From IMG/VR virus record IMGVR_UViG_3300035660_000017, positions 1-49,189 of that record: a stretch of DNA of 49,189 nucleotides; one strand, 5' to 3'. The position numbers were made by a program, and so were the translations under genes. Position 1 is the stretch's first letter, and the number at the start of each line of letters is the position of its first letter. Shown here piece by piece: positions 6,864-43,635 of this stretch. The stretch comes from a virus. The notes below the pieces were generated by a model. The model was given only the letters and a program-made list of their open reading frames with translations, did not search any database and had not been told where the DNA came from.

Positions 6864-7330
6864 AGTATAAAGAATACGCCAAAACATATCATGAAATTGT
6901 AGATACTACCCGAGTCTTAAACATAAAAAAAAGAAATCTTGAAGAGTTGATAAATGAATTAAAAGAAGATGGAAAATACGGACTGGAATTTACTAGTCAT
7001 GGATTTTCCCAAATCGCGGAAAAACTTGAAGATCTTGCGGGGGATAACCAAATGATTTATAATGATGTTATAAGGCCAGATTCTCCGCAAGATGCATTGA
7101 TAATTCCGTCAAATCTTAAATCATTTGTTATTAGTTTATTATCAATGGCTCTTGAAGAGGGTAATGTCGTAGAAAAGGATTCACGAACAAAAGGTAAAGA
7201 ATTTCACTATATAACTGTTATTAAAAAATGGTTAATAAACAAAAAGGTGATTGAATTTACCTGTATTGTAGAGAATAACTGTATTAAAACGGGGTATTTT
7301 AATTATGTTGATTTTACCGGGGAAAAATAA
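6860..7330 (+). CDS. Hypothetical protein preceding the helicase (156 aa)
   Basis: The start is placed at the ATG at 6860 (MKYKEYAKTYHEIVDTTR), which follows AAGGAAATT and overlaps the stop of the small membrane gene. A longer frame from 6821 would add 13 residues already used by that gene. The protein is mixed alpha/beta, soluble and about 156 aa, with no recognised motif. Its end overlaps the helicase start by 26 bp, so the two are translated from one message and may work together. Confidence 0.65.
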   Translation: MKYKEYAKTYHEIVDTTRVLNIKKRNLEELINELKEDGKYGLEFTSHGFSQIAEKLEDLAGDNQMIYNDVIRPDSPQDALIIPSNLKSFVISLLSMALEEGNVVEKDSRTKGKEFHYITVIKKWLINKKVIEFTCIVENNCIKTGYFNYVDFTGEK

Positions 7331-9071
7331 GGATGAATTAATTGTTGCGTGTAACGATCGTGATAAACTCGCCATAATTCAAGCTGTTACCGATGGAAGA
7401 AAAGTACGCGGAAACAATCAAATCATTATTCATAAAAAAGCTGCAGTTAATCTTATACGGATGTTTAACGATATTCAATATCAAGATACTCAATTGATAG
7501 TTAAACATGCGTGTGAATTATATACCGTAAGAATTGATAATATGAAAATGATAAAAAAATCCGACGGAACGAAATTTAATTATGATTATAAAGGAATTTA
7601 TCCTGAAGTAATGAGACATCAGAAAATAATGTACAATGCGATTATGTATACTGATTGCTGTGCGCTTCTCGCTGATCCCGGAACGTGTAAAACAGGTCCG
7701 TACATTTGGGCGATCGATCGGCGTATTAAAGATGGGAAAATAAAAAGATGTCTTATTATTACGCTTTCTTCTTTAAAAGAAAATGTATTACGGGAAATTT
7801 CCATTCAAGCACCTCATTTAAAGGCGGTTGCTATTTATGGTAAAGCAATAGCCGATAAAATAATTAATAAAAAATATAAAATTAAAAAATATAATCAGGA
7901 TTATGACGTTTATATAGCGAACTATGAAAGTATGTTTGGCCTTGTCGAGATTTTTGATAATGATTTTTTCGATATGGTTATCTGTGATGAGGCTCATAGA
8001 ATAGGATCTCCGCAGGCACGACAGACAAAATCAATTATTGATAAATTTGAAAATGTCAAATATAAATACATCATATCGGGAACGTTAAATGCCAATAATT
8101 TAATGTCATTTTTTATGCCATTCAGATTTTTAGGCGCGGATACGATACCAGTGTCTAATTATAATGCTTATCGCGCCCAGCATATGTTTACCGTTGATCC
8201 TGACGGAGGATATGTGTGGAAGCCGAGAAGCGAAAATGATATTCAATATACTTCAAAAATTATCGGACTCATTTCGCTTTCTTTTAAAAAAGAAGAATGC
8301 ATCGATCTTCCCCCTTTGATTCGGGAATATATGTATTGTACCATGTGTGGAGAACAACGAAAAGTGTATGAAGACTTAAAGAATGAATTTCTGGCGATTA
8401 TTGATGATATGTGTAAAAAGTGTGATCGTTTTAATAATTGCAATATGCAATGCCAGGGAGAATTAACGGCAAAAAATGCCCTGGTATTAACCAGAAAATT
8501 ACAACAAGTCGCTTCCGGATATTATATCAATACCCGATTTTTGATTAATGAAGATGGCAGCGAAATTGATATGAGGAATATTATTTATTTTGAATATAAT
8601 GCTAAATTGCAATTACTTCTTGAAGTTATGAGAACCATTCCGGATGGGAGAAAAACGATTATATGGAGTTATTCCATCCCCGCTTTGGAAATTATTAAAA
8701 AAAACGTAGAAATTGAGTTTGGAGACGAATCATGCCTTACCTGTTATGGGAACCAAGACGCTTTTAAGCAAATTAATATATTTAGGGAAAATGAAAAAAT
8801 TAACTGGTTGATAGGAAATCCTGCCAAAATGGGTTCCGGTCACAATATTCAGTTTTCAAATTTTCAAATATTTTTTGATAATTCGTTTTCATATATCATG
8901 AAAGACCAGGCGGAAAGCAGGCAATATCGCCAGGGACAAAAAGAAAAAGTGACTGTAATTGAATTAATAACCAGGGATACTATAGACGAAAGGGTGGTTA
9001 GGGTTATCGATGATAAAAAGGATTTGTCTTTAACATTATCGCAGTGGGCCCAGGTATTTAGAAGGGAATAA
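7305..9071 (+). CDS. SNF2-type DNA helicase/ATPase
   Basis: The 588-aa protein has both lobes of an SF2/SNF2 motor. Motif I is LLADPGTCKTG (residues 121-131), motif II is the DEAH box at 228-231, and motif III is ISGT at 257-260. Motif VI lies near the C-terminus (QAESRQYRQGQ), preceded by GSGHNIQ. A cysteine cluster lies between the lobes (C345, C348, C370, C373, C379, C383) and probably binds zinc. The phosphate loop has Cys where most family members have Gly before Lys-Thr, while the Lys and Thr are kept. Such helicases in phages move or remodel DNA during replication, repair or transcription. The gene overlaps its upstream neighbour by 26 bp. Confidence 0.87.
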   Translation: MLILPGKNKDELIVACNDRDKLAIIQAVTDGRKVRGNNQIIIHKKAAVNLIRMFNDIQYQDTQLIVKHACELYTVRIDNMKMIKKSDGTKFNYDYKGIYPEVMRHQKIMYNAIMYTDCCALLADPGTCKTGPYIWAIDRRIKDGKIKRCLIITLSSLKENVLREISIQAPHLKAVAIYGKAIADKIINKKYKIKKYNQDYDVYIANYESMFGLVEIFDNDFFDMVICDEAHRIGSPQARQTKSIIDKFENVKYKYIISGTLNANNLMSFFMPFRFLGADTIPVSNYNAYRAQHMFTVDPDGGYVWKPRSENDIQYTSKIIGLISLSFKKEECIDLPPLIREYMYCTMCGEQRKVYEDLKNEFLAIIDDMCKKCDRFNNCNMQCQGELTAKNALVLTRKLQQVASGYYINTRFLINEDGSEIDMRNIIYFEYNAKLQLLLEVMRTIPDGRKTIIWSYSIPALEIIKKNVEIEFGDESCLTCYGNQDAFKQINIFRENEKINWLIGNPAKMGSGHNIQFSNFQIFFDNSFSYIMKDQAESRQYRQGQKEKVTVIELITRDTIDERVVRVIDDKKDLSLTLSQWAQVFRRE

Positions 9072-9075
9072 GATA

Positions 9076-9252
9076 ATGAAAAAATTTATTATTCTATTGT
9101 TATTAATTACATCATGCGGATATAGAATTGTTATAACCGAATCACCAAAATACACATATGATAATTGTAGGATCATAAAAATAAAACAATATAAAAAATT
9201 GGGAGTTACTTATTATAAAATATTGATTAAAGAGGAAAGGTGTGAAAAATAA
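9076..9252 (+). CDS. Small lipoprotein (58 aa)
   Basis: A short frame 4 bp after the helicase starts MKKFIILLLLITSCGY: two Lys, a hydrophobic stretch, then a lipobox-like ITSC. Signal peptidase II cleavage before Cys14 would give a lipid-anchored protein of about 45 residues with a basic C-terminal half. The frame overlaps the next gene, which starts at a GTG at 9242. Phage lipoproteins of this size include outer spanins and superinfection-exclusion proteins, but no inner-spanin partner is seen nearby, so the role is open. Confidence 0.6.
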   Translation: MKKFIILLLLITSCGYRIVITESPKYTYDNCRIIKIKQYKKLGVTYYKILIKEERCEK

Positions 9253-9511
9253 AAAAATTTATTTTGTTGAATATCAAAAAATGAATAAAAATAAAAAATG
9301 GTCAAATATAAAATCTTTAAATATTTTATCAGAAAATGATAAAAGTGTTATTAATAAATTTAAATTATATTTTGCTCCTGGAGAATATCAAATATCTATT
9401 CATATAAATGAACTTGCAAATAGATCTGGAATAATATTTGAGAATATAAAAAGTGGTGGTATACTATGCTTGACCGGTACCGGCATTAATGAAAGAATAA
9501 TAGTAAAATGA
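9242..9511 (+). CDS. Hypothetical protein (89 aa)
   Basis: The frame uses a GTG start at 9242, with GAGGAAAGG just upstream as ribosome binding site, and overlaps the lipoprotein gene. The product is basic and Lys/Asn-rich at the N-terminus (MKNKKIYFVEYQKMNKNKKW). The C-terminal half looks like a small beta structure ending in Gly/Ile-rich strands. No family is recognised. Its position in the rightward operon is the only clue to its role. Confidence 0.55.
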   Translation: MKNKKIYFVEYQKMNKNKKWSNIKSLNILSENDKSVINKFKLYFAPGEYQISIHINELANRSGIIFENIKSGGILCLTGTGINERIIVK

Positions 9512-9521
9512 AAGAAAAATT

Positions 9522-9710
9522 ATGGCATTAAAAAGGGTTTGTGATTTTTGTAATAAACAAATTATTAATATAGAAAAAACCATTTTTATATATAAAAAAA
9601 AGAAATTCAGAGTTGCCATTCTTAAAATTAATATTCAAAATGGTTTACGTTGGAGAGAAGCTGATATATGTGAAAAGTGTTTTAATAAACATGTAAAAGG
9701 AAGATTATGA
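9522..9710 (+). CDS. Small zinc-ribbon-like protein (62 aa)
   Basis: The 62-aa protein has a CxxC pair near each end: CDFC at residues 7-10 and CEKC around residue 50. This is the spacing of a small zinc ribbon or knuckle. The central part is basic, which suits nucleic-acid or protein binding. The TGA stop overlaps the ATG of the next gene (9707), so the two are coupled. The specific role is not known. Confidence 0.6.
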   Translation: MALKRVCDFCNKQIINIEKTIFIYKKKKFRVAILKINIQNGLRWREADICEKCFNKHVKGRL

Positions 9711-10153
9711 TAAAAAATTATACTTCTACAGTGTCAATAGCTAAATCGGTTCAACATATCGAAGAACGTTTAATGAAACATGGTGCCAAGCAGATTCTTA
9801 AAATTTGTGAAAATCAAAAATTAATCGGAATAGCGTTTAGCGTGGATGTTAATGGAAAAGAAATTCCATTTAAACTTCCAGCCAGAATCGATAGGGTTGA
9901 GCAACAATTATACAGTTTTGTTAAAAGACCGCGGCCTGATACGAAAAATAGAATTGCAGAACAAGCCGGGCGATCGGCATGGAAACTGTTGGCTGATTGG
10001 GTCGATATACAAATGTCGTTAATCGAACTCGATCAGGTTGAATTGGTTGAAGTATTCATGCCTTATATTTATGACGATTTTAATAAGCAAACATTTTTCG
10101 AAAAAATGAAAAATAGCGGATTTACGTTATTAGAAGATCGGCGTACAAAATAA
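9707..10153 (+). CDS. Conserved phage-type hypothetical protein (148 aa)
   Basis: This soluble 148-aa protein starts in a 4-bp overlap with the zinc-ribbon gene. Features seen are SVQHIEERLMKHGAKQIL at the N-terminus, a central IPFKLPARID segment, and the helix AEQAGRSAWKLLADWVDIQM. I recall proteins with this layout as common hypothetical proteins in phage replication regions, with no known activity. The context (helicase before, HTH and VRR-NUC after) fits a helper in DNA metabolism, which is inference only. Confidence 0.6.
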   Translation: MIKNYTSTVSIAKSVQHIEERLMKHGAKQILKICENQKLIGIAFSVDVNGKEIPFKLPARIDRVEQQLYSFVKRPRPDTKNRIAEQAGRSAWKLLADWVDIQMSLIELDQVELVEVFMPYIYDDFNKQTFFEKMKNSGFTLLEDRRTK

Positions 10154-10155
10154 TT

Positions 10156-10470
10156 ATGAGGATCACAAAAGATCAATTTATAAAAATGATAGAAAATTTT
10201 TCTTCAGACGTCGAGATGGGCCAGTTTTTTCATAAAAGCAGACAATGGTCATGGAGAAAAAGAAAAAAATTTAAAATATTTTTTGGTATTGAGAAAAAAA
10301 AGAGAAACAAATCAATTATAGAATTATACGATAATAATATTCGTATGAAAGAAATAGGAAAGCAGTTTTTCTTGTCAAAATCTCAAGTTTATAGAATAGT
10401 AAAGAAGGTCAAAGATGCTAGAAAAAGACTTGCAGGCGAAAATCTTGAAATTCCTGGAATCAAGGAATGA
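10156..10470 (+). CDS. Small helix-turn-helix protein (104 aa)
   Basis: The protein is very basic. Residues of about 55-85 (IIELYDNNIRMKEIGKQFFL then SKSQVYRIVKK) fit a helix-turn-helix of the resolvase/homeodomain-like type, with the recognition helix at SKSQVYRIV. It is probably DNA-binding. The gene's last 56 bp overlap the VRR-NUC gene in a different frame, so the two are tightly coupled. It could guide or regulate that nuclease, or act as a small transcription factor. Confidence 0.6.
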   Translation: MRITKDQFIKMIENFSSDVEMGQFFHKSRQWSWRKRKKFKIFFGIEKKKRNKSIIELYDNNIRMKEIGKQFFLSKSQVYRIVKKVKDARKRLAGENLEIPGIKE

Positions 10471-10702
10471 AGTATTTTCGTTTAAAATTAAACAAGCCAA
10501 TAGAATTGGAATTCCTGATATTTTTTTTACTACCGTAAAAACCGGTCCATGGTTTGTGGAAATTAAACTGGAAAACGAGAAACCATTGATCCATCAATAT
10601 GCAATAATAGATAAATTAAATAAATGTGGAATGCGGGCAACATGGATATCCGGATGGGATGGGTGGATTGCTTTTGTTAAAAAAATCGGTTTATTGGAAT
10701 AA
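10415..10702 (+). CDS. VRR-NUC family nuclease
   Basis: The 95-aa protein spans a whole VRR-NUC domain, the usual size of stand-alone phage members. Visible motifs are E3 and the N-terminal helix, GIPDIFF with D35, FVEIK with E49 and K51, and Q61 in HQYAIIDKL. These form the PD-(D/E)XK-type metal site of a family linked to cutting branched DNA such as Holliday junctions. The ATG at 10415 follows AGAAGG, although it lies inside the end of the HTH gene. It probably resolves branched phage DNA together with the nuclease fusion and helicase upstream. Confidence 0.85.
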   Translation: MLEKDLQAKILKFLESRNEVFSFKIKQANRIGIPDIFFTTVKTGPWFVEIKLENEKPLIHQYAIIDKLNKCGMRATWISGWDGWIAFVKKIGLLE

Positions 10703-10723: not shown

Positions 10724-12328
10724 ATGAATGATGATTTTGCGCCTTATATCATTATAGAACAATGGATGACAGATGCTTTTCCGGATTTGGAGTATATCCA
10801 TTATCCAATAGCTAATAATATGGTTGTTATAATTAATGATAATGGGTGGGAAAAAATTGTTGATAAATCTGATATAGAAAAATGTGTTCTATTTGATTCT
10901 AATATTGAAGGAGTAAAAGTTGGAGTTACTTCATTGTGGGCTAATACTACATTGTTGGAATCTATTGTAACAGAAAATGTTAGATTATCACCAACGTATT
11001 CTGATATTTTTACTTGTATTATATCAAATAATATAAGTATTAAACAAAGAATAGAGATCTTACAATCAGAAGACAAGCCAAAAGAAGAGTTTATTTTACC
11101 AATTGAAAAAAACCCTTTATTTCTTAGTCCTTATTTAACTTTTGGAGAAGACGAGGTATTTATTGATACTTGTTGTAATGTCGAAGATCTTGAAATTCCA
11201 TTATTACAATTTTCAAGAAAGTTAAAGAGAAAGATTATTGTGTTATATACATATAATTATAAAATAAATGATTTTGATGTATTTAATTCTGCATTCAAAA
11301 TTTTTATAATTAGTGAACACAACAGAGATTTTGTACCAGTACAAATAAATGGCGGTGCAATTTCATGTCTTGGATTTTTAACCAATTCTATTTATATTCC
11401 AAAACAAATGGATAAAAATACTTCGCCATACATAAAATATGATGTAATATTAAAGGATTCATTTACTAATGTAATCTTTAGTATCGGTAATAATGATGAA
11501 ATGTATATCGTTATTCCGGGAGCTTCTGCTTTAGTTACTTTTATAAAAGAAATATGTAAAAGGTATAAATCTTCTGAAAATTTTGAAGAATTGGATAAAA
11601 TGTATTATGAAAAATATTTAAAAGAGAATAAAAAAAACTATATCAACATGGCAAAACAATCATCCATTCAAATAAAAAATGAATTGGTGGTAAAAGCGCA
11701 GTCGCTTCAAAATGAATATGAGATATTGTTAAACAGTGTTTTGGAAAAAGCGAAAATGTTTAATGTAGTTCAAACTCAAATTAAGTATTTCGATCAACAA
11801 AGGTTTGATGAAGAACAGGAAAAAAAATTTTCAGAAAATTATGATATGACTGAAGCATTAGACCGTGTTCATTCGATAATAATTAATCCAAACGGTATTG
11901 TTACTGTGAACACGAAAGAAATTTATGTAAAAGACGAACGCACCGGTAAATGGCATGAAATAGGAAAATTTTCAATTGTCATAGGTATGATTTCACAAAA
12001 TTATGATATTCGTACAACTGTGAGAATTAGAAATATTAAATATGGAGATTTGATTGCTGGTTATCAGGCGCCGCATGTCTTTAGTAATTGTTTAATGTGT
12101 CATGGCAATATAGAAGCAAGTATTGCCGATGCGTATAAAAATAAAAATCTATATGAATTGGTTTTATTAATCATACAATTTTTACAACATGCCAATACCG
12201 GGGATAGGGCGGGTGAGAATATCGACAAATGGCCTGAAGTGCCAGAAGATGTTGTGAAAGGGTTTCATAAAGTAGAAATTAAAAAAATAGATATTCCAAT
12301 TTTTATCAAAAAGGAGGAAAAGTCTTGA
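10724..12328 (+). CDS. E2-like (ubiquitin-conjugating fold) protein 1, long form
   Basis: The 534-aa protein starts at an ATG after AGGAGG. The first 300 residues are not recognised. Residues of about 290-375 are a charged helical/coiled-coil stretch. Residues of about 380-505 look like an E2-type fold: strands around HEIGKFSIVIGM and TTVRIRNI, then YQAPHVFSNCLMCHGN, and DRAGENIDKWPEVP after a helix. C459, in the MCHGN segment, lines up exactly with C274 of the next gene's product, inside a shared YQAPHV(F/Y)xNxxxC(H/F)G motif, and is the likely thioester cysteine. The motif recalls the Pro-rich stretch and Cys of E2 enzymes and of E2-like proteins in bacterial Ubl operons. The assignment is inferred from motif, alignment to its neighbour and operon context. 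Confidence 0.6.
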   Translation: MNDDFAPYIIIEQWMTDAFPDLEYIHYPIANNMVVIINDNGWEKIVDKSDIEKCVLFDSNIEGVKVGVTSLWANTTLLESIVTENVRLSPTYSDIFTCIISNNISIKQRIEILQSEDKPKEEFILPIEKNPLFLSPYLTFGEDEVFIDTCCNVEDLEIPLLQFSRKLKRKIIVLYTYNYKINDFDVFNSAFKIFIISEHNRDFVPVQINGGAISCLGFLTNSIYIPKQMDKNTSPYIKYDVILKDSFTNVIFSIGNNDEMYIVIPGASALVTFIKEICKRYKSSENFEELDKMYYEKYLKENKKNYINMAKQSSIQIKNELVVKAQSLQNEYEILLNSVLEKAKMFNVVQTQIKYFDQQRFDEEQEKKFSENYDMTEALDRVHSIIINPNGIVTVNTKEIYVKDERTGKWHEIGKFSIVIGMISQNYDIRTTVRIRNIKYGDLIAGYQAPHVFSNCLMCHGNIEASIADAYKNKNLYELVLLIIQFLQHANTGDRAGENIDKWPEVPEDVVKGFHKVEIKKIDIPIFIKKEEKS

Positions 12329-13299
12329 AAATAATAATAAGACCTAGAGTTTTTGAATGGTATCCGAAACTTTTATTTTATGGTTTTGTTCCGGATGAAT
12401 TTTTTACATCCGGTGGTCGTATATCAAGATCGATAGATGACATTGTTGTTTTTCAACATGAATCTGAAGAACAATTAAGAAGAATTTTAAATAATGATTC
12501 GATTTTTAATGAGCTAATTGTAACTACAATTGATGACGGTTTTGTAGTTAATTTGCCACCAGCTAATCTTGTAGAAACGACAAGTCCCGTAACAGACGCT
12601 GATATCGTACCGGGATTTGATGAAACGGAAGATGAAGATAATAGAATTATTGAAGTTAACCCTGATTATAGACTTCCTAAAAAAGAGGAAGAAAGCAATT
12701 ATGCTATAAAAATAGCACAATGTTTAAATAATTCCACTACATCTGAAGCAAGAGATTTAACGTCATTAATGGATCGATTTCATACATTAACAAATGAATT
12801 AATTAAAATTAAAAGATTAATTGATTCAAAAGGTAAAGTGCTTGATTGTGATCCTGATGTTAAAAAGATCATAGAATCGATAATATATTTAAAAAAACAT
12901 CCGAAAATTGATGATGTTTTTCTTTCCCCAGAGTTCAATATTAATATCGTCACAAAAGTTATAAAAGTAGAAGTTGAACATGTTATACGAATTTTGGGAA
13001 AGATGCTTATTATCCTTCCGTTGAAATTGTTCGTAGGGAGTAACCCCAATTTAAGTGGTATAAGAATTATTAATTTAACTCATATCATTTCTTATAATAG
13101 CACTCTGTATCAGGCTCCGCATGTTTATGAAAATGAGGGGTCTTGTTTTGGCGGAGCAACTTGTGATTTAATTATAAATGCAATTGCAGCCCGCGACGTA
13201 ACTTTAACATTTTCGGCAATTTTACAGTTCTTAGAACTGCCGAATATTGAAGATGAAGCAGGCGAATGTGCGTTACTTTTGCCGGAGGCAAATAAATGA
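12325..13299 (+). CDS. E2-like protein 2, short form
   Basis: The 324-aa protein uses a TTG start at 12325, overlapping the stop of protein 1, with AAGGAGG 7 bp upstream. Residues 1-80 are a beta-rich unit, 84-125 an acidic linker and 125-190 helical. Residues of about 195-315 share the C-terminal domain of protein 1: LGKMLIILPLKLF, GIRIINLTHI, LYQAPHVYENEGSCFGG with C274, then QFLELPNIEDEAGE. Conservation of the Cys, the APHV stretch and the AGE motif between two otherwise different proteins points to a common catalytic core. The stop overlaps the start of the JAMM gene by 4 bp. Two E2-like genes in tandem suggest either two transfer steps or one active and one adaptor copy. Confidence 0.6.
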   Translation: MKIIIRPRVFEWYPKLLFYGFVPDEFFTSGGRISRSIDDIVVFQHESEEQLRRILNNDSIFNELIVTTIDDGFVVNLPPANLVETTSPVTDADIVPGFDETEDEDNRIIEVNPDYRLPKKEEESNYAIKIAQCLNNSTTSEARDLTSLMDRFHTLTNELIKIKRLIDSKGKVLDCDPDVKKIIESIIYLKKHPKIDDVFLSPEFNINIVTKVIKVEVEHVIRILGKMLIILPLKLFVGSNPNLSGIRIINLTHIISYNSTLYQAPHVYENEGSCFGGATCDLIINAIAARDVTLTFSAILQFLELPNIEDEAGECALLLPEANK

Positions 13300-14144
13300 A
13301 ATTACGAGTAATGAATACTAATATAGTATTCGCCCCTAAAATTATTATTGACCAAAAAGCAAAAGAGTGGATGAAAGCCATTGTCGATCTTCATGAAACT
13401 GAAGTTGGATTTTATGCATTGTCTACGATGAGGGATGACAATACCTTTTTTATTAGCGACGTGTATTACCCGAAACACAATATCGCTAATTTGGGACATT
13501 GCGAAATAGCAGATAGTGGTCAATCCGATTTCATGAGATTGCTTATAAGTCAAGGTAGAGAAGACGATGTTGGTAAGATTAAAGTATGGGGCCATTCTCA
13601 TGTTGATATGGGAATAAGCCCAAGTAAAGATGACCATGATCAAGCCATGGAATCGGCACGAGACAATAAGGATTATTTTATCAGATTAATCACAAATAAG
13701 AAACATCAGATAGGCGTTTCTTTTTATGACTATAAAAAAAATCTGATTTATGATGAAGTAGGTTGGGAAATAGAAGTATCAAATGCCGAATCAATTTATG
13801 AAACCAAGGTAAATCAGATAATAAATATTATTACAGCAAATCAAAATTATACACAGGCGATAAAAGAAATTCGTCTGGTATTGGATAATAATGTTTTTTA
13901 TCAAGAGGCATGTGAATATATAAAATTAAAAAAAGAAGAAAACATGCCACAGCCTACATTTAATGGACAAACAAATTTGTTTGCGCATTCATATGATTTC
14001 GGTTTTAAAAATGATCAAAGATTTTTTTCAAAAAAAAACAAAACAAGTTTTACGCCATTTTTCGAAAGAGATCCCGTCGATCAGATGGGATTAGAAAACC
14101 TATTGGATGAAGATAGTTATTACGGAAAGGGGTTTTACGAATAA
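13296..14144 (+). CDS. JAMM/MPN+ (JAB) metallopeptidase
   Basis: The N-terminal 150 residues form a JAB/MPN domain with an intact zinc motif: E36 in ETEVGFY, and H-x-H-x7-S-x2-D as H100, H102, S110 and D113 (in GHSHVDMGISPSKDD). In this family the site cleaves the isopeptide or peptide bond after the last Gly of a ubiquitin-like protein. The remaining 130 residues are an unrecognised helical extension ending in an acidic tail. The start overlaps the stop of the E2-like gene in an ATGA, after a GGAGG, and the gene end overlaps the E1-like gene by 1 bp. The likely job is to trim the tandem Ubl precursor and/or to remove the tag from targets. Confidence 0.85.
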   Translation: MKLRVMNTNIVFAPKIIIDQKAKEWMKAIVDLHETEVGFYALSTMRDDNTFFISDVYYPKHNIANLGHCEIADSGQSDFMRLLISQGREDDVGKIKVWGHSHVDMGISPSKDDHDQAMESARDNKDYFIRLITNKKHQIGVSFYDYKKNLIYDEVGWEIEVSNAESIYETKVNQIINIITANQNYTQAIKEIRLVLDNNVFYQEACEYIKLKKEENMPQPTFNGQTNLFAHSYDFGFKNDQRFFSKKNKTSFTPFFERDPVDQMGLENLLDEDSYYGKGFYE

Positions 14145-14872
14145 TGGATTACAATCGTCAAAACAAATTATTGAATGTTGCAAAAATAGGTAAAAAAAGT
14201 ATCACTTTAATAGGAGCCGGGGCTGTTGGATCACACGTTGCCTTGTTATTGACCCAAATGGGATGGGGCGATCAAAGCAGTGACCAAGGAGTTATTAACG
14301 TATTTGACTTTGATAAAGTCGAAGAGCATAATCTGGCAAATCAGATATATGATCCGTCTCATGTCGGAAAATTCAAGGTTGATGCTCTTAATGAGGCAAT
14401 TAAGAAAAAGTGTGGTTTCGGAATTAATACTTTTAATGAAAAAGTAATTAATCAAACCGCGAACGTTCAATCTACCTATGTTTTTCTTATGGTGGATACC
14501 ATGGCAGGCAGAAAAGAAATTTTTGATAACTGCCTGCGTTATAGTTTCGATACCCAGTTGGTAATCGAGACTCGAATGGGGTTAGATGAAGGTCGAATTT
14601 ATGCATTCAATCCCGCAAATAGGGAGCATTTACGTGAGTGGGAATTTTCCTTGTATTCAGATCAAGAGGCCGAATTATCATTATGCGGGACCAGTATGGC
14701 TATAGCGATGACCGCTTGGTATATTGCAAGTCTTGCAGTTTCCAGAGTAATTCAGCATTTTAATGATAAAAAAGATTTATGGAATGAATTTCACTTTTGT
14801 TTATGTCCCGAATCATATTATTATAGAAGGTTTAGTGAAAAACCTTTTATGTTACAACAATTTAATTCATAA
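14144..14872 (+). CDS. E1-like (ThiF/MoeB/UBA superfamily) adenylating enzyme
   Basis: The 242-aa protein has the E1-type Rossmann core: GAGAVGS at 24-30, D55/D57 in VFDFDKVEEHNLANQ, K76 in VGKFKVDAL, and D118 in MVDT. C181 in LSLCGTS is a good candidate for the cysteine that accepts the activated Ubl. The usual N-x-x-R-Q motif is seen as HNLANQ, so the Arg is replaced. Such enzymes adenylate the C-terminus of a ubiquitin-like protein and pass it to an E1 or E2 cysteine. The gene lies between the JAMM peptidase (1-bp overlap) and the Ubl (12-bp gap), which supports conjugation over cofactor synthesis. Confidence 0.85.
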   Translation: MDYNRQNKLLNVAKIGKKSITLIGAGAVGSHVALLLTQMGWGDQSSDQGVINVFDFDKVEEHNLANQIYDPSHVGKFKVDALNEAIKKKCGFGINTFNEKVINQTANVQSTYVFLMVDTMAGRKEIFDNCLRYSFDTQLVIETRMGLDEGRIYAFNPANREHLREWEFSLYSDQEAELSLCGTSMAIAMTAWYIASLAVSRVIQHFNDKKDLWNEFHFCLCPESYYYRRFSEKPFMLQQFNS

Positions 14873-14884
14873 GGAGTAATAAAG

Positions 14885-15340
14885 ATGATTCTGGTAAAAT
14901 TGATGAAGTTGGGAATTCCGGTTGTTGAATACAGCATGGAAGATGGAGCAACCGTTTCCGATTTATTTGAAACGGCTGATGAGGAGTTCAAGGGAACAGT
15001 AACCATTCTTGACCGTCCCGTAGATGAAGACACGGTTCTTCGTGATGGTGACCGGGTTTTCGTATCGGCCAAAGTAAAAGGCAGCACCCCTCTTGAGGTA
15101 AAACTCTTGAGGGTCGGCGGCGCTACAACCAAAACCTATGTAGTGGAATCTGGGACAAGTCTCGGGGATTTCATTAATGGGTTGGAAGACAAGGATGATT
15201 ACATAGACGCAAGCGGTAATCACAAGTGGACCTACACCGATGTTGTGGGCGTCGTATTGAGCCTTGGATATACATTCTCTGGCACTCCGGAACAGGTAAT
15301 ACGCATTCTCCTGTCCAAAAAGACCAAGGGAAGCAGGTAA
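14885..15340 (+). CDS. Tandem ubiquitin-like (beta-grasp) protein, likely modifier precursor
   Basis: The 151-aa protein reads as two related beta-grasp units. Unit 1 (about 1-67) has VKLMKLG, then SMEDGATVSDLFE, then the MoaD/ThiS-like DTVLRDGDRVFVSAKVKGS. Unit 2 (about 68-151) has VKLLRVGG, then VVESGTSLGDFIN, and ends LLSKKTKGSR. Both units end in K-x-K-G-S, with Gly at 66 and 149. Cutting after these Gly residues by the adjacent JAMM enzyme would free a C-terminal Gly for the E1-like enzyme. No Gly-Gly end is present, so maturation differs from ubiquitin. The gene follows AAGGAG, is richer in G+C (about 45-55% in parts) than its neighbours, and is the last gene before a terminator. Fold and role are inferred. 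Confidence 0.7.
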   Translation: MILVKLMKLGIPVVEYSMEDGATVSDLFETADEEFKGTVTILDRPVDEDTVLRDGDRVFVSAKVKGSTPLEVKLLRVGGATTKTYVVESGTSLGDFINGLEDKDDYIDASGNHKWTYTDVVGVVLSLGYTFSGTPEQVIRILLSKKTKGSR

Positions 15341-15362: not shown

Positions 15363-15536
15363 ATGGTACAGGATGCTATGTATCAGCTAATTTTTAACCT
15401 GATGTTATTCCTTTTTGATAGGGGGCCGAAAGGCTCCCTTTTTAGCTATCAAATGCCAGCTGTTGGAGATCGCGGGGGCAATTGCTCTGGTAAAGATTGT
15501 GATTGTGATTCAATAGGTTCGGTTTCTACAACCTGA
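15363..15536 (+). CDS. Possible small protein after the Ubl gene (57 aa)
   Basis: A frame starting MVQDAMYQLIFNLMLFLF follows a very good ribosome binding site (AAAAAAAGGAGTTTCAA before the ATG), the same type of leader used before the genes at 46726 and 49156. The N-terminal part is hydrophobic. However, the frame runs across the terminator hairpin and into the antisense end of the portal-like gene, so most transcripts may end inside it. It could be a leftover gene start, a leader peptide, or chance. The protein itself shows no known motif. Confidence 0.25.
   Translation: MVQDAMYQLIFNLMLFLFDRGPKGSLFSYQMPAVGDRGGNCSGKDCDCDSIGSVSTT
15421..15443 (+). terminator. Rho-independent terminator of the rightward block
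   Basis: GGGGGCC pairs with GGCTCCC (one G-T pair) around a GAAA loop, followed directly by five T. It lies 80 bp after the Ubl stop and just before the end of the leftward portal-like gene, so it ends transcription of the block 4320-15340. The opposite strand lacks a T-run after the hairpin, so it is probably one-directional. Confidence 0.85.
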
Positions 15537-17482
15537 TCTTGCTCTGTTGTAACCGGTTGTTGTGTTTCTGGATCTATTGGTACTATCTGCGGAATTCCTG
15601 CTAATAAATCAGCTTCTATCATTTGTAATTCTTTGAGATTTTTATAGACTTCTTGATAAGTATGTGGCATTGATTTGCTCATAATAAACATTCTTAATGT
15701 AAATTCTTCACGACTAAGACGGGATAGCGTGGCAAATCTTTGTGTAAGCATCATTATGATTTGCTGAACAGTAAATTGTTGAACTCCACCCATTTCCTCA
15801 CTAAGTTTTGATCCATCTTCCTGTGTTTTATTAATCGACGATTTATTATGGCGTTCTCTGGATTCCTGTTCGGCGGAATACATTTTATTATTGAATTCAA
15901 CCTGAGCATCGGCGTTGAATCTCTGTTGTATTATACCCGCTTTACCACCTGCCGATGCCTCGCCTTCCAATTCTTCAATTCTTAATTCAATCGATTGACT
16001 CGTTTCTTCCATTATATTTTTAAACTCAGTTTCCGGATCCATATCCAGTTCTTGTATTGCCGTCGTTCTTGATACGACGCGCTGTGATGGTGTTCCGGAA
16101 GAAGCCTGCAGGAGCATACCTTTTCTTTGTATATCATCAGCCATTTTGAATGGCGACATTTTAATATCGATTTCAGGAATATTAAAATAAATCGCCAAAT
16201 GATTTTTTACCCAATCTATCAATTCATGCATACTGGTTCGATGATTGATAAATCTATTTTCAACAATTCTGAGAGAAACATTGCTCCCCGACCATGATGC
16301 GCCACCCCTTATAATTTCAGGTATTACGCCCATGCCGGTAATAATTCCATCTTCGGTCTGTTTTATTTCAGGAGTAGTCATTAATAATCTGGCTTCTCCG
16401 CTGAAGGTCTGAAAACCAACCGGTAACGGCATGATGGATATATGGTTAGGATCTACCTTCCATTTTCTAAGCTCTTCTTCAATTTTCTGTCTCCAACTGG
16501 TTAAATTAATAGTGGCATGGGGAGAAACATCACCTGTTCCCTGTGGAAATATAATTCTCAATGGAACGATATGATCGAGCGAAATCATTTCGTTTCCCTT
16601 TTTCAGAATTTTAAGATGAAACACGTCTTTTAAAACAGGCAATACCGTCGGAATCCCCCATCCACGTTCAGATGGATAAAAGTATTGCGGTCCGGGTTGT
16701 TTAAAATAAAAAACATTATCATTTTTTAATTTTAATTGTTTGTTCTGTTTTACAGCGTCTAAAATTTCAATACGCAAGGAGTTGACTATATCAAGATCGC
16801 CCTTTTTAACAGCCTCTACGAGAAACGGGGGTATCTGATAATAAAAAAAATGTTCATTTGTTATATTATTATATTTAATTTCAATAAACAGAAGATCCCA
16901 TAAAATAATACTTAATTTATCTGTTTCTTTAGTCTGCATGTCGCTGATTTCAAAATCGGTTAATGATCCACAGGATGAGCATTTTCCTTTATATATATAA
17001 TTTTTATATTCAAGATCAGTCTCTGATTCGACAGTATTTATAGTGTTACATTTTTTACATGTTAATAATCTCTTAAATGGAAAATGTATGGAAATAAGGC
17101 TGGATCCATATGCATGATAATCCATTCCTATTTGATGCATGACTTTGATGAATTTTAATTTTTTCTCAAAAATATCTTTCCATTTATCAACCGTTTTATC
17201 GCCTTCGATAAATGATTTTTTTTGATCGGTAAATTTGAGCGAAGTAATGGGGTATTCGGACATTCGTGCAATACATTGATATACAAGCGGATCAGAAAGA
17301 ATACTGGAGGCTATAAACCGGAACATACCTTTAATTGTTTTAGGTATGAATGTATTGGTCATATCTAGGAACGGGGAATCGTATTTAATAGACGATCGGG
17401 TGAAAGAAACTTTAGTTTCCCCACCGCCCCCTGGGACACCACTCGGACTCAATACGTTTCCAGCTAAGCCTTCTGCTGCCAT
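15449..17482 (-). CDS. Putative portal protein
   Basis: The protein is 677 aa. The order of features fits a large-phage portal: a central wing/stem region with FHLKILKKGNEMISLDHIVP and GFQTFSGEARLLMTTPEIKQ, then GMGVIPEIIRGGASWSGSNV, followed by helices and a Gln/Pro-rich tail (residues of about 630-677). An insertion at about 145-190 has two CxxC pairs (CKKCN and CSSCG) and is probably a zinc ribbon. In the virion, a portal is the ring through which DNA is packaged and to which the tail joins. ATG at 17482 follows AAGGGA. The gene is the last of the leftward virion block. The portal assignment comes from these patterns and is not proven. Confidence 0.6.
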   Translation of the reverse strand: MAAEGLAGNVLSPSGVPGGGGETKVSFTRSSIKYDSPFLDMTNTFIPKTIKGMFRFIASSILSDPLVYQCIARMSEYPITSLKFTDQKKSFIEGDKTVDKWKDIFEKKLKFIKVMHQIGMDYHAYGSSLISIHFPFKRLLTCKKCNTINTVESETDLEYKNYIYKGKCSSCGSLTDFEISDMQTKETDKLSIILWDLLFIEIKYNNITNEHFFYYQIPPFLVEAVKKGDLDIVNSLRIEILDAVKQNKQLKLKNDNVFYFKQPGPQYFYPSERGWGIPTVLPVLKDVFHLKILKKGNEMISLDHIVPLRIIFPQGTGDVSPHATINLTSWRQKIEEELRKWKVDPNHISIMPLPVGFQTFSGEARLLMTTPEIKQTEDGIITGMGVIPEIIRGGASWSGSNVSLRIVENRFINHRTSMHELIDWVKNHLAIYFNIPEIDIKMSPFKMADDIQRKGMLLQASSGTPSQRVVSRTTAIQELDMDPETEFKNIMEETSQSIELRIEELEGEASAGGKAGIIQQRFNADAQVEFNNKMYSAEQESRERHNKSSINKTQEDGSKLSEEMGGVQQFTVQQIIMMLTQRFATLSRLSREEFTLRMFIMSKSMPHTYQEVYKNLKELQMIEADLLAGIPQIVPIDPETQQPVTTEQDQVVETEPIESQSQSLPEQLPPRSPTAGI

Positions 17483-17777: not shown

Positions 17778-18944
17778 TTATGTTAAATAAATTGAACCTG
17801 TATGAAATATAGTGGTAATTTTTTTTATTCCAAAATTTCCATCACTACAACAAACAGTTTTTCCATATGTTGAACACCCTTTAACAATATGTATTTTTCT
17901 TTTTATAAATACAAAATCACCAGGCTGTATTGAATATCTTTGTTTACGGATAGATGGCTTAAAACCCTTTCTATTCAACTGCAAAACCCTATTATTTCTA
18001 TGTTTCTGCTTAAATATAATTGGAGCCACTTTTCTCTGTTCGTTTCCACCAGCTATTACAAAAGCATCGTTATAATGGCTTTTTTCTAACCTCAAAATAT
18101 TTCTTTTAACAAAAGTCTCATTTCCATAAATTAACTTACAATTTGATAAAATATTTCTGAATTTATTCCTTATTATACTCATAAATGTTGCATCTTTGTA
18201 AACCTTATTCTTTTTTAACACATCATACAACTTGTTCTTATGCAATTTCTTATGACATCTCTCATGCAACAAAGCCAAATTCTTCTCCCGGTCTATTCCA
18301 CCGTTACTCCTCGATATAATGTGGTGAATATGAAAACTGTTACCTTTTGAAAACTCTTTACCGCATAACTGACATCTTCCCTGCTCCCGGAACATTAAAA
18401 AACTTCTCATGTTTTGATATTCAAACAACGATCCTTGTTGATATTGTATTCCTGCTATATCTGGATTCTCTATTTTCTGAATATCAAAATTACCTACTTC
18501 AATTACAACATTCTTAATTGGTAATAGTTTTTTTAGCTTGTTAATCAAGGTTATGTGGGTGTTGAATCTTCTCTGTGTTGAAGGTGGTAAATAACCAATA
18601 GCTGTTTTTCTATTGTTAAATCTTGGCTTTCTATACCACAATCTACTCCTTCTACCCCTTCGATACATTCTCTTTTCTATAAGTCTCTCAGATGTCCTTT
18701 GATCCAAAAGAAGCGTTCCTGCTACTATTTCTTTTTTATCAGTTATTGCTGAAAAACCTATATTCTTAAAACCGCTGTCTATTCCCAAAGAACAATCTTG
18801 AACCTGATTCTCACACTCAAAATTCAATTTAATAACAAATGGATTCTGCTTTACAACATGCGCTTTTCCTCCTTCTAAAAGATGCCTTGCCTTTGTACTT
18901 GTGCATGGCATTAAAGGTTTTCCATTAATTGACAATACAAACAC
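17778..18944 (-). CDS. iscB: IscB RNA-guided endonuclease (RuvC-HNH)
   Basis: All IscB parts are present. Residue numbers count from the upstream ATG at 19118. They are the PLMP domain (NGKPLMPCTSTKARHLL, about 65-80), RuvC-I D114 in LGIDSGFK, an Arg-rich bridge helix (about 149-166), RuvC-II E207 in VVIEVGN, an HNH domain with C249/C252, H265/H266, N280 and H289, and RuvC-III H348/D351 in SHYNDAF. Both nuclease sites look intact. I place the start at the GTG at 18944 (388 aa), directly before the PLMP domain. The longer frame from the ATG at 19118 adds 58 residues with no IscB similarity, over DNA full of hairpins. No tnpA is nearby. It probably cuts DNA matching an omega-RNA guide and promotes homing of the element. 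Confidence 0.88.
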   Translation of the reverse strand: MFVLSINGKPLMPCTSTKARHLLEGGKAHVVKQNPFVIKLNFECENQVQDCSLGIDSGFKNIGFSAITDKKEIVAGTLLLDQRTSERLIEKRMYRRGRRSRLWYRKPRFNNRKTAIGYLPPSTQRRFNTHITLINKLKKLLPIKNVVIEVGNFDIQKIENPDIAGIQYQQGSLFEYQNMRSFLMFREQGRCQLCGKEFSKGNSFHIHHIISRSNGGIDREKNLALLHERCHKKLHKNKLYDVLKKNKVYKDATFMSIIRNKFRNILSNCKLIYGNETFVKRNILRLEKSHYNDAFVIAGGNEQRKVAPIIFKQKHRNNRVLQLNRKGFKPSIRKQRYSIQPGDFVFIKRKIHIVKGCSTYGKTVCCSDGNFGIKKITTIFHTGSIYLT

Positions 18945-19194
18945 AATGCTTTTAAAGCCGGGTGCTTGTTCCCGTTGATCCACTTCGAGATTGTTTAAAG
19001 TCCGTACTTTATCCTGTACACTGACTCTTTCAAGTCTGTTTAATACAGGATTTACAGAGCAAGGAACTAGTGGAGTATTCCTTGGTGTGTTCTTAAACTT
19101 TACTTTAAACTGCTGCATAGATAAACAACCTAAGCCCTCTAATCAACTCTTACGTTGAATCTCACGATTCAAGCTCCGGCCCTTGTGGCCGGAG
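18945..19194 (-). ncRNA. Candidate omega-RNA (HEARO-type) upstream of iscB
   Basis: The 250 bases before the GTG start hold a chain of inverted repeats. They are 18948-18958 (GCTTTTAAAGC), 18959-18974 (CGGG/CCCG), 18997-19010 (AAAGT/ACTTT) and 19013-19049 (CCTGTA/TACAGG with an inner GACT/AGTC). Further out are 19060-19084 (CAAGGAA/TTCCTTG), 19155-19172 (TTGAATC/GATTCAA) and 19174-19194 (CTCCGGCC/GGCCGGAG). An alternative pair, 19143-19158 (TCAAC/GTTGA), competes with one of these. Omega-RNAs of IscB lie exactly here, are of this length, and carry the guide at their 5' end. The 5' boundary is uncertain, and the last one or two hairpins may belong to the flanking gene. Confidence 0.65.
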
Positions 19195-42492: not shown

Positions 42493-43635
42493 ATGATACA
42501 AAAGAAATCCTACAAATTCCGCATTTATCCCAATAATGCCCAAAAAGTCTTACTATCTAAAACTTTCGGATGTGTTCGATATATCTGGAATCAATTTGTA
42601 GAATCATTCAATAAAAAAGAAAATCCTAAATCTACTACTATTTTTAGAAAAGAAATAGAATGGTTAAAAGAAGTATCTTCTGCGGCTATTCAACAAAAAG
42701 AAATTGATTTTAAAGAATTTAAAAATCAGTTTTTCTCTAAAAAGAGAAAGAAAAAAATAGGAAAGCCTTCTTTTAAAAAGAAATTTGAAAAACAATCTTA
42801 TCGATTACCTAATCAGAAATTTATCTTAAAAAATAATAAGATCAGACTTGAAAAGATAGGATGGATAAAAATCATTCTTGATCGAGAAATTCCTTCTTGT
42901 AAATTTTTATCAGTTACTATTTCAAAAGATAAAGTTGGAGATTATTATGCCTCAATCTTAGTTGAAGAGAATGTCCAAGAACTACCTAAAACAAATAAAA
43001 TAGTAGGAATAGATTTAGGAATACAAGATCTTATTACTACTTCAGATGGATTACAGATAAAAATGTTTGATGAAAGTGAGAACCAAGCTAAAATTAAGCA
43101 TTTATCCGGACATCTATCAAGGAAGAAAATAGGATCTTTGAGATTTAATAAGACAAAGATTAAGATAGCTAAAATCTATCGTAAAATAGCAAGAAAGAGA
43201 GAATGGTTACATCATAATATTTCTTCTTATCTTGTAAAAAATTATGATAAGATTATAATAGAAGATCTTAATATTTCCGGAATGATGAAAAACCATAATT
43301 TAGCAGGATCTATTCAAAAACAGGGATGGTTTACTTTAGGAAAACAGATTGATTATAAGTCAAGATGGTATGGTAGAAAATTAACTAAGATAAATCGATT
43401 TTATCCTTCTTCTAAATTGTGTTCATTATGTGGTAGAATAAAAAAAGATCTAAAATTGTCAGAAAGATTTTATATTTGTAAATGTGGAAACAATATTAAT
43501 AGAGACTTAAATGCATCTCTAAATATTCTATCTTCAGGAGTTACTGAAGATTATCGATCATTGATGGAAAGTAAGACTTTTAATAATCAGGAGACATTAA
43601 AAGCAATTCCAGATGAAATGATTAACTTTTTATAA
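42493..43635 (+). CDS. tnpB: TnpB RNA-guided endonuclease
   Basis: The 380-aa protein has all TnpB parts: an N-terminal HTH-like region (KSYKFRIYPNNAQKVLL), RuvC-I D174 in GIDLGIQDL, RuvC-II E257 in IIIEDLNISGM, and a zinc ribbon with C310, C313, C329 and C331. RuvC-III D338 lies in NRDLNASLNI. No catalytic residue is missing. In this family the nuclease uses an RNA read from the element's right end to cut matching DNA, the ancestor activity of Cas12. Here it is a sole gene on the plus strand inside the leftward virion block, without tnpA. It probably works as a homing-type selfish element in the phage population. Confidence 0.9.
   Translation: MIQKKSYKFRIYPNNAQKVLLSKTFGCVRYIWNQFVESFNKKENPKSTTIFRKEIEWLKEVSSAAIQQKEIDFKEFKNQFFSKKRKKKIGKPSFKKKFEKQSYRLPNQKFILKNNKIRLEKIGWIKIILDREIPSCKFLSVTISKDKVGDYYASILVEENVQELPKTNKIVGIDLGIQDLITTSDGLQIKMFDESENQAKIKHLSGHLSRKKIGSLRFNKTKIKIAKIYRKIARKREWLHHNISSYLVKNYDKIIIEDLNISGMMKNHNLAGSIQKQGWFTLGKQIDYKSRWYGRKLTKINRFYPSSKLCSLCGRIKKDLKLSERFYICKCGNNINRDLNASLNILSSGVTEDYRSLMESKTFNNQETLKAIPDEMINFL

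Follow-up and report, generated by a model that had tools for sequence, protein, structure and literature searches.

A candidate ubiquitin-like conjugation cassette with two E2-like genes and a tandem modifier in a phage genome

The cassette

We analysed the virus record IMGVR_UViG_3300035660_000017 of IMG/VR over positions 1 to 49,189 (49,189 nucleotides, hereafter the window). At 10724-15340, five intact and open reading frames (ORFs) encode two proteins like ubiquitin-conjugating enzymes (E2), a JAMM/JAB metalloprotease, an enzyme like ubiquitin-activating enzymes (E1) and a tandem ubiquitin-like (Ubl) protein (Table 1). The window therefore encodes E1, E2, Ubl and JAMM together, which is the general kind of a conjugation cassette. 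From the first ORF to the fifth, the genes overlap by 4 bp, 4 bp and 1 bp and are then separated by a gap of 12 bp. GGAGG or AGGAG precedes ORFs 1, 2, 3 and 5, with a weaker ribosome-binding site for ORF 4. A first-pass annotation, made from the letters and the list of ORFs, had described these five genes as linked, and their coordinates, open frames and spacing all hold.

The same annotation had placed the cassette in a phage genome. This is borne out by the virus record itself, by phage-type genes in the window (helicase, exonuclease and a partial baseplate-wedge match) and by an 80,022-bp virus contig with which 16,972 window bases agree without a difference. The cassette is also beyond chance, with a Pfam ThiF match of 2.3e-21 for the E1 and with E1 and JAMM found together in 119 distinct loci. 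Ten window proteins were scanned against Pfam, and the absences reported below (E3 ligase, CD-NTase, rhodanese, Zn-finger partner) refer to these ten.

Table 1. Features of the cassette and of the adjoining region, in window positions (aa, amino acids).
Feature	Position	Strand	Remarks
E2-like protein A (ORF 1)	10724..12328	+	534 aa; N-terminal region of ~370 residues of unassigned fold, then E2-type domain with QAPHVF..LMCHG; H451, C459
E2-like protein B (ORF 2)	12325..13299	+	324 aa, TTG start; E2-type domain ~176-324 with QAPHVY..GSCFGG; H266, C274
JAMM/JAB metalloprotease (ORF 3)	13296..14144	+	282 aa; E36, H100-x-H102, S110, D113
E1-like adenylating enzyme (ORF 4)	14144..14872	+	242 aa; GAGAVGS, D57, N63, Q67, K78, D118, C181
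Tandem ubiquitin-like protein (ORF 5)	14885..15340	+	151 aa; unit 1 = 1-67 ending K-V-K-G-S; unit 2 ~70-150 ending K-T-K-G-S, then R
Terminator-like hairpin and T run	15420..15439	+	3' of the cassette and of a 57-aa ORF
Upstream same-strand genes	7305..10702	+	Helicase, HTH-like and VRR-NUC among small ORFs
SNF2-type helicase	7305-9071	+	phrog_62 helicase, 1.2e-89
Helix-turn-helix (HTH)-like protein	10156-10470	+	Under Pfam cut-offs
VRR-NUC nuclease	10415-10702	+	Pfam VRR-NUC, 23.9 bits against a cut-off of 23.8
Converging conserved gene	15449..17482	-	677 aa, no named family; adjoins the cassette in loci L007 (44% identity) and L008 (42%)

E1 and JAMM proteins

The identity of the window E1 is certain. 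Besides the Pfam match, a profile of 12 phage E1s matched the structures of PaaA (8e-14) and UBA5 (2e-13), and further those of ThiF, ubiquitin E1, BubCD and Cap2. The best NCBIfam match is a ThiF model, with the protein staying under the equivalog cut-offs of the ThiF models (58.9/159, 48.3/275.25 and 43.9/152.2 bits).

Viral loci were then fetched with E1 and JAMM alignments, taking 80 each out of 222 and 118 relatives; the loci measure at most ~17 kb and mostly less than 13 kb. E1 and JAMM occur together in 158/164 of them, JAMM being present in 78/80 loci fetched by E1 and E1 in 75/79 further loci fetched by JAMM; the remaining few came from other searches. By E1 sequence 119 loci are distinct (numbered with L below), among them the record of the window itself and three records of phages. 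Alignments of the 119 loci plus the window have 120 rows, in which the window thus appears twice (as L001 and under its own name).

Cys181, Asp118 and Arg144 of the E1 are found in 120/120 rows, and the nucleotide-site residues nearly so, with scan patterns that contained D57 and D118 and did not contain C181. The first-pass annotation had given GAGAVGS, D57, K76 and C181 as the intact core. Of these K76 has to be replaced, since the lysine conserved in the family is K78 (K in 119/120 rows, with a gap in the remaining row), and the others stand.

As for the JAMM product, the JAMM/MPN+ motif (E, H-x-H-x(7)-S-x-x-D) is complete, and its putative identity rests on this motif; the Pfam Prok-JAB score is 13.3 bits, below the cut-off of 25. 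The earlier claim of an intact H100-x-H102, S110 and D113 was confirmed residue by residue and extended by E36. Each of the five ligands is present in 120/120 aligned rows, with H100-H102 being part of the scan pattern for the loci fetched by the JAMM alignment only. Furthermore, JAMM and E1 divergence are correlated over the 119 loci (r 0.80), the highest of 500 permutations reaching 0.10.

E2-like proteins

Neither E2-like product has a Pfam match (for protein A, none at E up to 1), and among 35 phage E2 domains UQ_con was found in one only, at E 0.011. At E up to 10, a profile of these 35 domains found 33 sequences in the PDB, namely 31 ubiquitin-conjugating enzymes by name and two entries called “L3A2-1”. 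Each match is weak alone (best E 0.36), and some span the whole first half of the domain. The full-length E2 alignment was also tried as a PDB query and set aside, with mostly coiled-coil or unrelated chains among the best 60 of 175 rows.

For protein B, AlphaFold with a 25-sequence alignment modelled the C-terminal domain with confidence (block means of 89-98 for residues 181-320), in contrast to a helical N-terminal region of low confidence. The three best Foldseek matches of this model (E 0.066-0.18) were UbcH7, then an RWD domain and then UbcH7~Ub; unrelated structures came next, at E of at least 0.59. The chains returned by VIA-align are E2 and RWD proteins to judge by their titles, at Z 6.4-7.4, where a Z below 8 may reflect no more than a common arrangement. 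On these weak to middling scores the Cys274 domain appears to have an E2-like fold, as the first-pass annotation had expected for this product.

Protein A is connected with the other E2-like proteins by sequence profiles. Its domain type, represented by four phages, was aligned by hhalign with the single E2s of other phages (Prob 99.8, E 2e-30) and with the protein B type (E 2e-13, His and Cys aligned), and protein B matched the single phage E2s at E 8e-20. In these profile comparisons H451 and C459 line up, and the E2 domain of protein A is homologous both to protein B and to the E2s of other phages. The E2 identity that had been claimed for this product is probable on the grounds of homology.

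In ORFs found by the E2 profile, the catalytic Cys is aligned in 76/77. The exception is the second E2-like protein of L125 (4533-5894), in which Cys is replaced by Val; it is possibly an inactive partner of the ubiquitin E2 variant (UEV) type, judging from this residue. The 35- and 70-member E2 alignments were picked by a PH...C.G motif (one of the 35 by hand), and the invariance of H, C and G is in part by design. Without this choice, the gene adjoining JAMM carries a strict [HP]H...C.G in 88/119 loci and lacks it in 27/119 (some having SH...C.G), with 4/119 having no ORF of 150 aa there. A motif control gave 36/262 other long ORFs, a number that is inflated by E2-like genes missed by the profile and gives no clean background.

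The tandem ubiquitin-like protein

At E up to 0.01, Pfam found nothing in the window Ubl. A profile built from 20 phage Ubl proteins matched the structures of SAMP2 (7.2e-8) and PF1061 (3.3e-7), as well as MoaD- and ThiS-type structures (0.02-0.06). When these 20 proteins were scanned with Pfam, ThiS was found in 5 and SAMP2 in 3; one of them matched PADLOC PD-Lambda-2_A (1.3e-7). In the AlphaFold model, the first unit of the window Ubl is a confident beta-grasp, with block means 93-98 over residues 1-60, which agrees with the fold first proposed for the 14885 product. ISG15, linear di-ubiquitin, tetra-ubiquitin and the OASL tandem Ubl are on top of its Foldseek matches (E ~2e-3). The arrangement of the two units is unmatched, only one of them superposing well, and a single SUMO2 superposes at 2.6.

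Both units end in K-G-S (residues 65-67, and 148-150 followed by R151), the tail of unit 1 being kept in unit 2 despite the poor model of the latter. A C-terminal Gly-Gly is absent from the protein. Among 108 distinct Ubl units, which include weak matches and of which the tail expression misread a few (e.g. V-K-G-G-R), 57 end in a K/R-G-X type with X being Asn in 38, Ala in 6, Gly in 4 and others in few. About 30 of the remaining 51 end in (D/N/A)-N-A.

Nine multi-unit Ubl proteins were compared by eye (L090, L127, L020, L108, L122, L087/L088, the window, L007 and L008), and in 9/9 the last tail residue is uniform within the protein: N, N, G, A, N, N, S, A and A, in this order. The residue after the last tail is unlike that after the first tail, or absent, as seen by eye. 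A shared tail is to be expected where whole units resemble each other, as they do in L090, L127, L020 and L108. More informative are the five proteins whose units have diverged (the window, L087/L088, L122, L007 and L008); of these, L007 and L008 have second units that were delimited by eye and are missed by the profile. A shared tail in diverged units fits the processing and use of both units, with the mature end at X, or X just after the cut.

Some variations of the precursor were also observed. A virus contig holds three near-identical units head to tail, each ending K-G-N, as a polyubiquitin-like precursor (L090:2264-2896), and another Ubl has a lysine/proline-rich tail after its K-G-N (L143:4383-4664). 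Longer proteins with an N-terminal Ubl-like stretch, recognised by eye and resembling ubiquitin-extension fusions, occur at L182:1259-1936 (Gp79 of the phage crAss001), L002:2785-3420 and L004:2613-3482. This stretch ends in K-x-K/R-S-G in L182 and L002, and in Q-V-K-S-G in L004.

Distribution and gene order

The most common gene orders in the 119 loci (U for Ubl, J for JAMM) are U-J-E1 (33) and U-E2-J-E1 (30), followed by J-E1 (17), U-E1-J-E2 (11), E2-J-E1-U (10), E2-J-E1 (6), E2-E2-J-E1-U (5) and rarer forms (7). The profiles find E2 in 67/119 loci, Ubl in 97/119 and both in 62/119; many U-J-E1 loci hold a PH...CLG gene that the E2 profile missed. All 72 E2 hits and 100/102 Ubl hits lie on the same strand as JAMM and within 3.5 kb of it. 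On this sequence evidence the cassette is widespread in phages and represents a family, not an oddity. A single-sequence viral scan with protein B returned only the same phage.

Among the five loci with two E2 genes, the second call of L030 is marginal (E 9e-4) and the second copy of L125 is the one without Cys. As judged from the genes, the layout E2-E2-JAMM-E1-Ubl-Ubl marks a small subclade made of the window, L007, L008, L088 and L087, the latter being cut at its end and having a Ubl protein identical to that of L088. The search for the same gene order in other phages, which had been proposed as a check, was successful for this subclade, and the cassette as a kind is widespread.

Named phages and genome contigs

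With the window E1 as tblastn query, 79 phage records were matched (29 Flavobacterium, 29 Bacteroides, 11 uncultured, and others), and protein B gave no match in phage records. By profile, E1 and a JAMM with HSH...S..D are both present in crAss001, DAC15, Fpv3, cr111_1 and the faecal clone MT835544. The E2 profile reached E 0.025 for cr111_1 and found nothing at E up to 0.1 in crAss001, DAC15 and Fpv3; the Ubl profile had no match in these four phages, where E2 and Ubl were assigned by eye.

In crAss001, the genes follow the order Gp79, Gp78, Gp77 (JAMM, labelled “metalloprotease domain”) and Gp76 (E1, labelled “thiamine biosynthesis”), between primase and uracil-DNA glycosylase. Examined by eye, Gp79 has a Ubl-like N-terminus with a long extension and K-K-I-K-S-G-A, and Gp78 is E2-like with HSHV...CTG. 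This cultured phage of the human gut probably carries a similar kit, with its genes under unrelated labels. At least the E1 and the JAMM are adjacent in cultured phages such as crAss001, DAC15 and Flavobacterium phage Fpv3, under labels such as “thiamine biosynthesis protein”, “metalloprotease” or “hypothetical protein”, so the system is already open to experiment.

Xanthomonas phage PhiXhv-12 has an E1 and an E2-profile match (1.2e-9), with no JAMM match in the 10.6 kb examined. Genome contigs yielded 17 loci, 16 in metagenome-assembled genomes and one in a cultured isolate, Allochromatium humboldtianum DSM 21881. The latter (L170) has E1-JAMM-E2 next to genes of phage type for DNA polymerase, exonuclease, primase and anti-restriction, with no Ubl found by profile, and is a possible prophage model. 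Finally, a related phage E1 found nothing in the plasmid collection at E up to 1e-5.

Neighbouring genes

The cassette is the end of a plus-strand block that also encodes an exonuclease, the SNF2-type helicase and the small VRR-NUC nuclease. The hairpin at 15420-15439 may be the end of its transcription unit, with position alone in favour: 4 terminator-like sites were found in the window and 3.7 are expected in shuffles, a number not above chance. For the converging 677-aa gene, neither PHROG nor Pfam gave a match at E up to 0.001, and no counterpart was found in the contig of the third relative, L088. A portal identity was considered for it and dropped, being unsupported by any library. Further along, the window contains an RRXRR-HNH endonuclease at 17778-19118 (Pfam 1.6e-56) and a transposase at 42493-43635 (phrog_506, 1.4e-103).

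Neighbours were surveyed in 125 of 192 candidates plus two window genes; 25 of 150 neighbour ORFs were left out, being most minus-strand ORFs and look-alikes of E2, Ubl or the cassette. Among these 127 proteins, where one protein may fall in two families (reverse transcriptase and polymerase, or two helicases), the commonest named PHROG families are reverse transcriptase and polymerase (11 each, largely the same proteins) and helicases (7 and 7). Next are single-stranded DNA-binding protein, DNA polymerase, exonuclease and primase, and other families are phosphatase, RNA ligase, a CRISPR-associated family, protease and a nicotinamide enzyme.

In 47/119 loci, for example L003:6888-8225, L079:7004-8152 and L126:7624-8799, the same strand carries a reverse transcriptase downstream of E1 (YTR[YF][AC]DD, with QGxPxSP in most). 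By rough classes of Ubl tail, it is present in 32/34 loci with the N-A type and in 8/50 with the K-G type only. None of this kind was found in the window. To our knowledge, no Ubl cassette has been linked to a reverse transcriptase.

Function

We hold conjugation chemistry as such to be very likely. As for the whole, we favour a phage-encoded reversible Ubl conjugation system that acts early, with a probability of roughly two in three (0.68). The JAMM peptidase would cut the tandem precursor after K-G-S in both units, giving two related modifiers with a non-diglycine tail. The E1 would adenylate the modifier C-terminus and hold the modifier on Cys181, from which it would pass to Cys459 of protein A or Cys274 of protein B. 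The charged E2 would attach it to amines of target proteins, and the JAMM peptidase may also take it off again. Early action on host or replication proteins, in favour of the phage, is suggested because the cassette ends a same-strand block with helicase and nucleases and its relatives lie among replication genes. What the analysis shows is the set of genes, their intact catalytic residues, the E1 homology, the computed E2 and Ubl folds and the conservation of the cassette as a unit; the catalytic steps, cleavage sites, timing and targets are our inference.

Several observations weigh against this reading. Apart from the E1, the JAMM, E2 and Ubl products are under Pfam cut-offs or have no match, and neither the E2 nor the Ubl profile matches in 17/119 loci. 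The Foldseek matches of protein B are weak (E 0.066-0.18, rmsd 5.8-7.0), and its VIA-align scores are of the ambiguous size described above. Unit 2 of the Ubl is of low confidence in the AlphaFold model, and the whole chain superposes poorly on ISG15 or di-ubiquitin (TM ~0.35; rmsd ~10-15 for most of the best matches). Nor does a Ser or Asn tail amount to a free diglycine, and no E3 was recognised among the proteins scanned. Lastly, the neighbour survey covers the best 25 of 152 families, has no control set and leaves out most minus-strand ORFs.

The genes could instead serve superinfection exclusion or defence, as a phage-borne Bil-like system that tags structural proteins of rival phages or of host-borne elements. 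The four component kinds (Ubl, E2, peptidase and E1) are indeed those of bacterial Bil. We consider this unlikely. The BilA, BilB and BilC profiles found nothing at E up to 1 among the window proteins, BilD gave only 18 bits, and BilA had no match at E up to 0.01 among the 20 phage Ubl proteins. Furthermore, the genes lie among replication genes both in the phages studied in detail and in the neighbour survey, which argues for a core role.

Late modification of proteins that belong to the virion of the phage or to its assembly would fit the conserved gene that converges on the cassette in two relatives, and a Ubl with JAB is described in tail assembly of lambda-type phages in sections of PMC1779556. 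We regard it as quite improbable, given that the cassette shares both strand and block with replication genes, and that in crAss001 it likewise lies by primase and uracil-DNA glycosylase. In a term search of the main text of the crAss001 structural atlas, gp75-79 are unmentioned.

Very unlikely, in our view, is a sulfur-carrier relay of the ThiS/MoaD/CysO type, working for a sulfur metabolite or a modified nucleoside, as the label “thiamine biosynthesis protein” implies. The ThiF model as best NCBIfam match of the E1 and the SAMP/ThiS/MoaD-like Ubl are in line with it, and JAB occurs with a ThiS/MoaD-like carrier in sulfur assimilation clusters, according to parts of PMC1779556. However, an E2-type gene with His and Cys stands by many E1-JAMM pairs, whether counted by strict motif or by profile, the E1 is far from the ThiF cut-off (58.9 against 159), most Ubl tails are not Gly-Gly, and no rhodanese was matched among the proteins scanned. 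That inactive mimics would jam a host Ubl-based defence is hardly credible: phages often carry decoy-type antagonists, but the E1 catalytic Cys and the JAMM ligands are invariant in 120 rows, which a binding decoy does not need, and loss of the E2 Cys is possible but rare (L125, Cys to Val).

Returning to early conjugation, we tentatively suggest, at somewhat less than even odds, a phage-specific system that extends from crAss-like phages to the window subclade, with modifiers ending in Asn, Ser or Ala, partly polyubiquitin-like precursors and a coupling to reverse transcriptase in one branch, as a core tool of host takeover rather than a bacterial defence. If true, the carboxyl end activated and transferred by E1 and E2 would be other than glycine, and tryptic digestion of the adducts would yield K-(G-S) or K-(G-N) remnants that escape Gly-Gly proteomics. 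With their Asn/Ser/Ala tails, the modifiers bear on the question of whether a terminal glycine is required in ubiquitin-type chemistry. Polyubiquitin has a simple parallel in the precursors of two and three units. It may be the phages that tag proteins, in order to run infection.

Comparison with known systems

The literature comparison drew on passages of PMC1779556, PMC7824862, PMC6235969, PMC10172136, PMC11879866 and PMC12660748 and on a term search of PMC7886860, which had no hits. No description of the phage cassette was found in this open literature; the main Bil papers and most subscription papers are outside its scope, so an earlier account is possible. By term search of the text covered, two crAss-like phage papers contain no ubiquitin, ThiF or JAB, and a jumbo-phage review contains no Ubl, JAB, E2-like or ThiF. 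The claim that the layout is unlike known systems holds against the profiles tested (PADLOC Bil, NCBIfam PRTRC and ThiF).

The PRTRC cassette of plasmids and mobile elements is, we assume, row 6d of Iyer 2006. In the sections of that paper (PMC1779556) on bacterial operons with these parts, which also cover lambda TAPI/TAPK and hold no phage set with E1 and E2, the operons of row 6d encode Ubl, E2, JAB and E1 together, with a conserved glycine at the Ubl end. Ubl, E2, JAB and E1 in one operon are what they share with the window. Unlike them, the window E1 reaches 43.4 bits against the PRTRC_ThiF cut-off of 144.75, the other four products match no PRTRC model, and both E2s have the classical His, which the row 6d E2 is described as lacking. 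Row 6e, in the same sections, has one to three tandem Ubls likened to polyubiquitin, usually a JAB-E1 fusion, and an inactive RWD-like E2. Tandem Ubls, JAB and E1 are common to both, whereas in the window JAMM and E1 are separate, both E2s have Cys, and no Zn-finger partner was recognised in the scanned proteins.

Lambda TAPI (Ubl) and TAPK (JAB-NlpC) are likewise a phage-encoded Ubl with JAB, according to these sections of PMC1779556; they differ by their tail-assembly location, and neither an E1 nor an E2 is described with them in that text. ISG15, linear di-ubiquitin and polyubiquitin precursors resemble the window Ubl in having two units in one chain with a repeated tail, and differ in ending R-G-G against K-G-S; in addition, the window units are diverged and their arrangement is not superposable.

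CBASS Cap2 and Cap3 use E1, E2 and JAB chemistry. The PADLOC E1-E2 models are the best defence-library matches of the window E1 (2.7e-13), while E1 and E2 are separate in the window, a dedicated Ubl is present and no CD-NTase was found in the ten proteins scanned.

Finally, in Bil each of Ubl, E2, JAMM-type peptidase and E1 is a protein of its own, and a tandem Ubl is included; the window shares all of this. The window cassette differs from Bil by the extra E2, by its place in a phage replication block and by standing on the opposite side of the conflict. In one passage of another paper, with citation, bacterial Ubl tagging is stated to act against phage assembly. Ubl conjugation in bacteria is known mainly as an anti-phage weapon, and a full and intact phage version turns this picture round.

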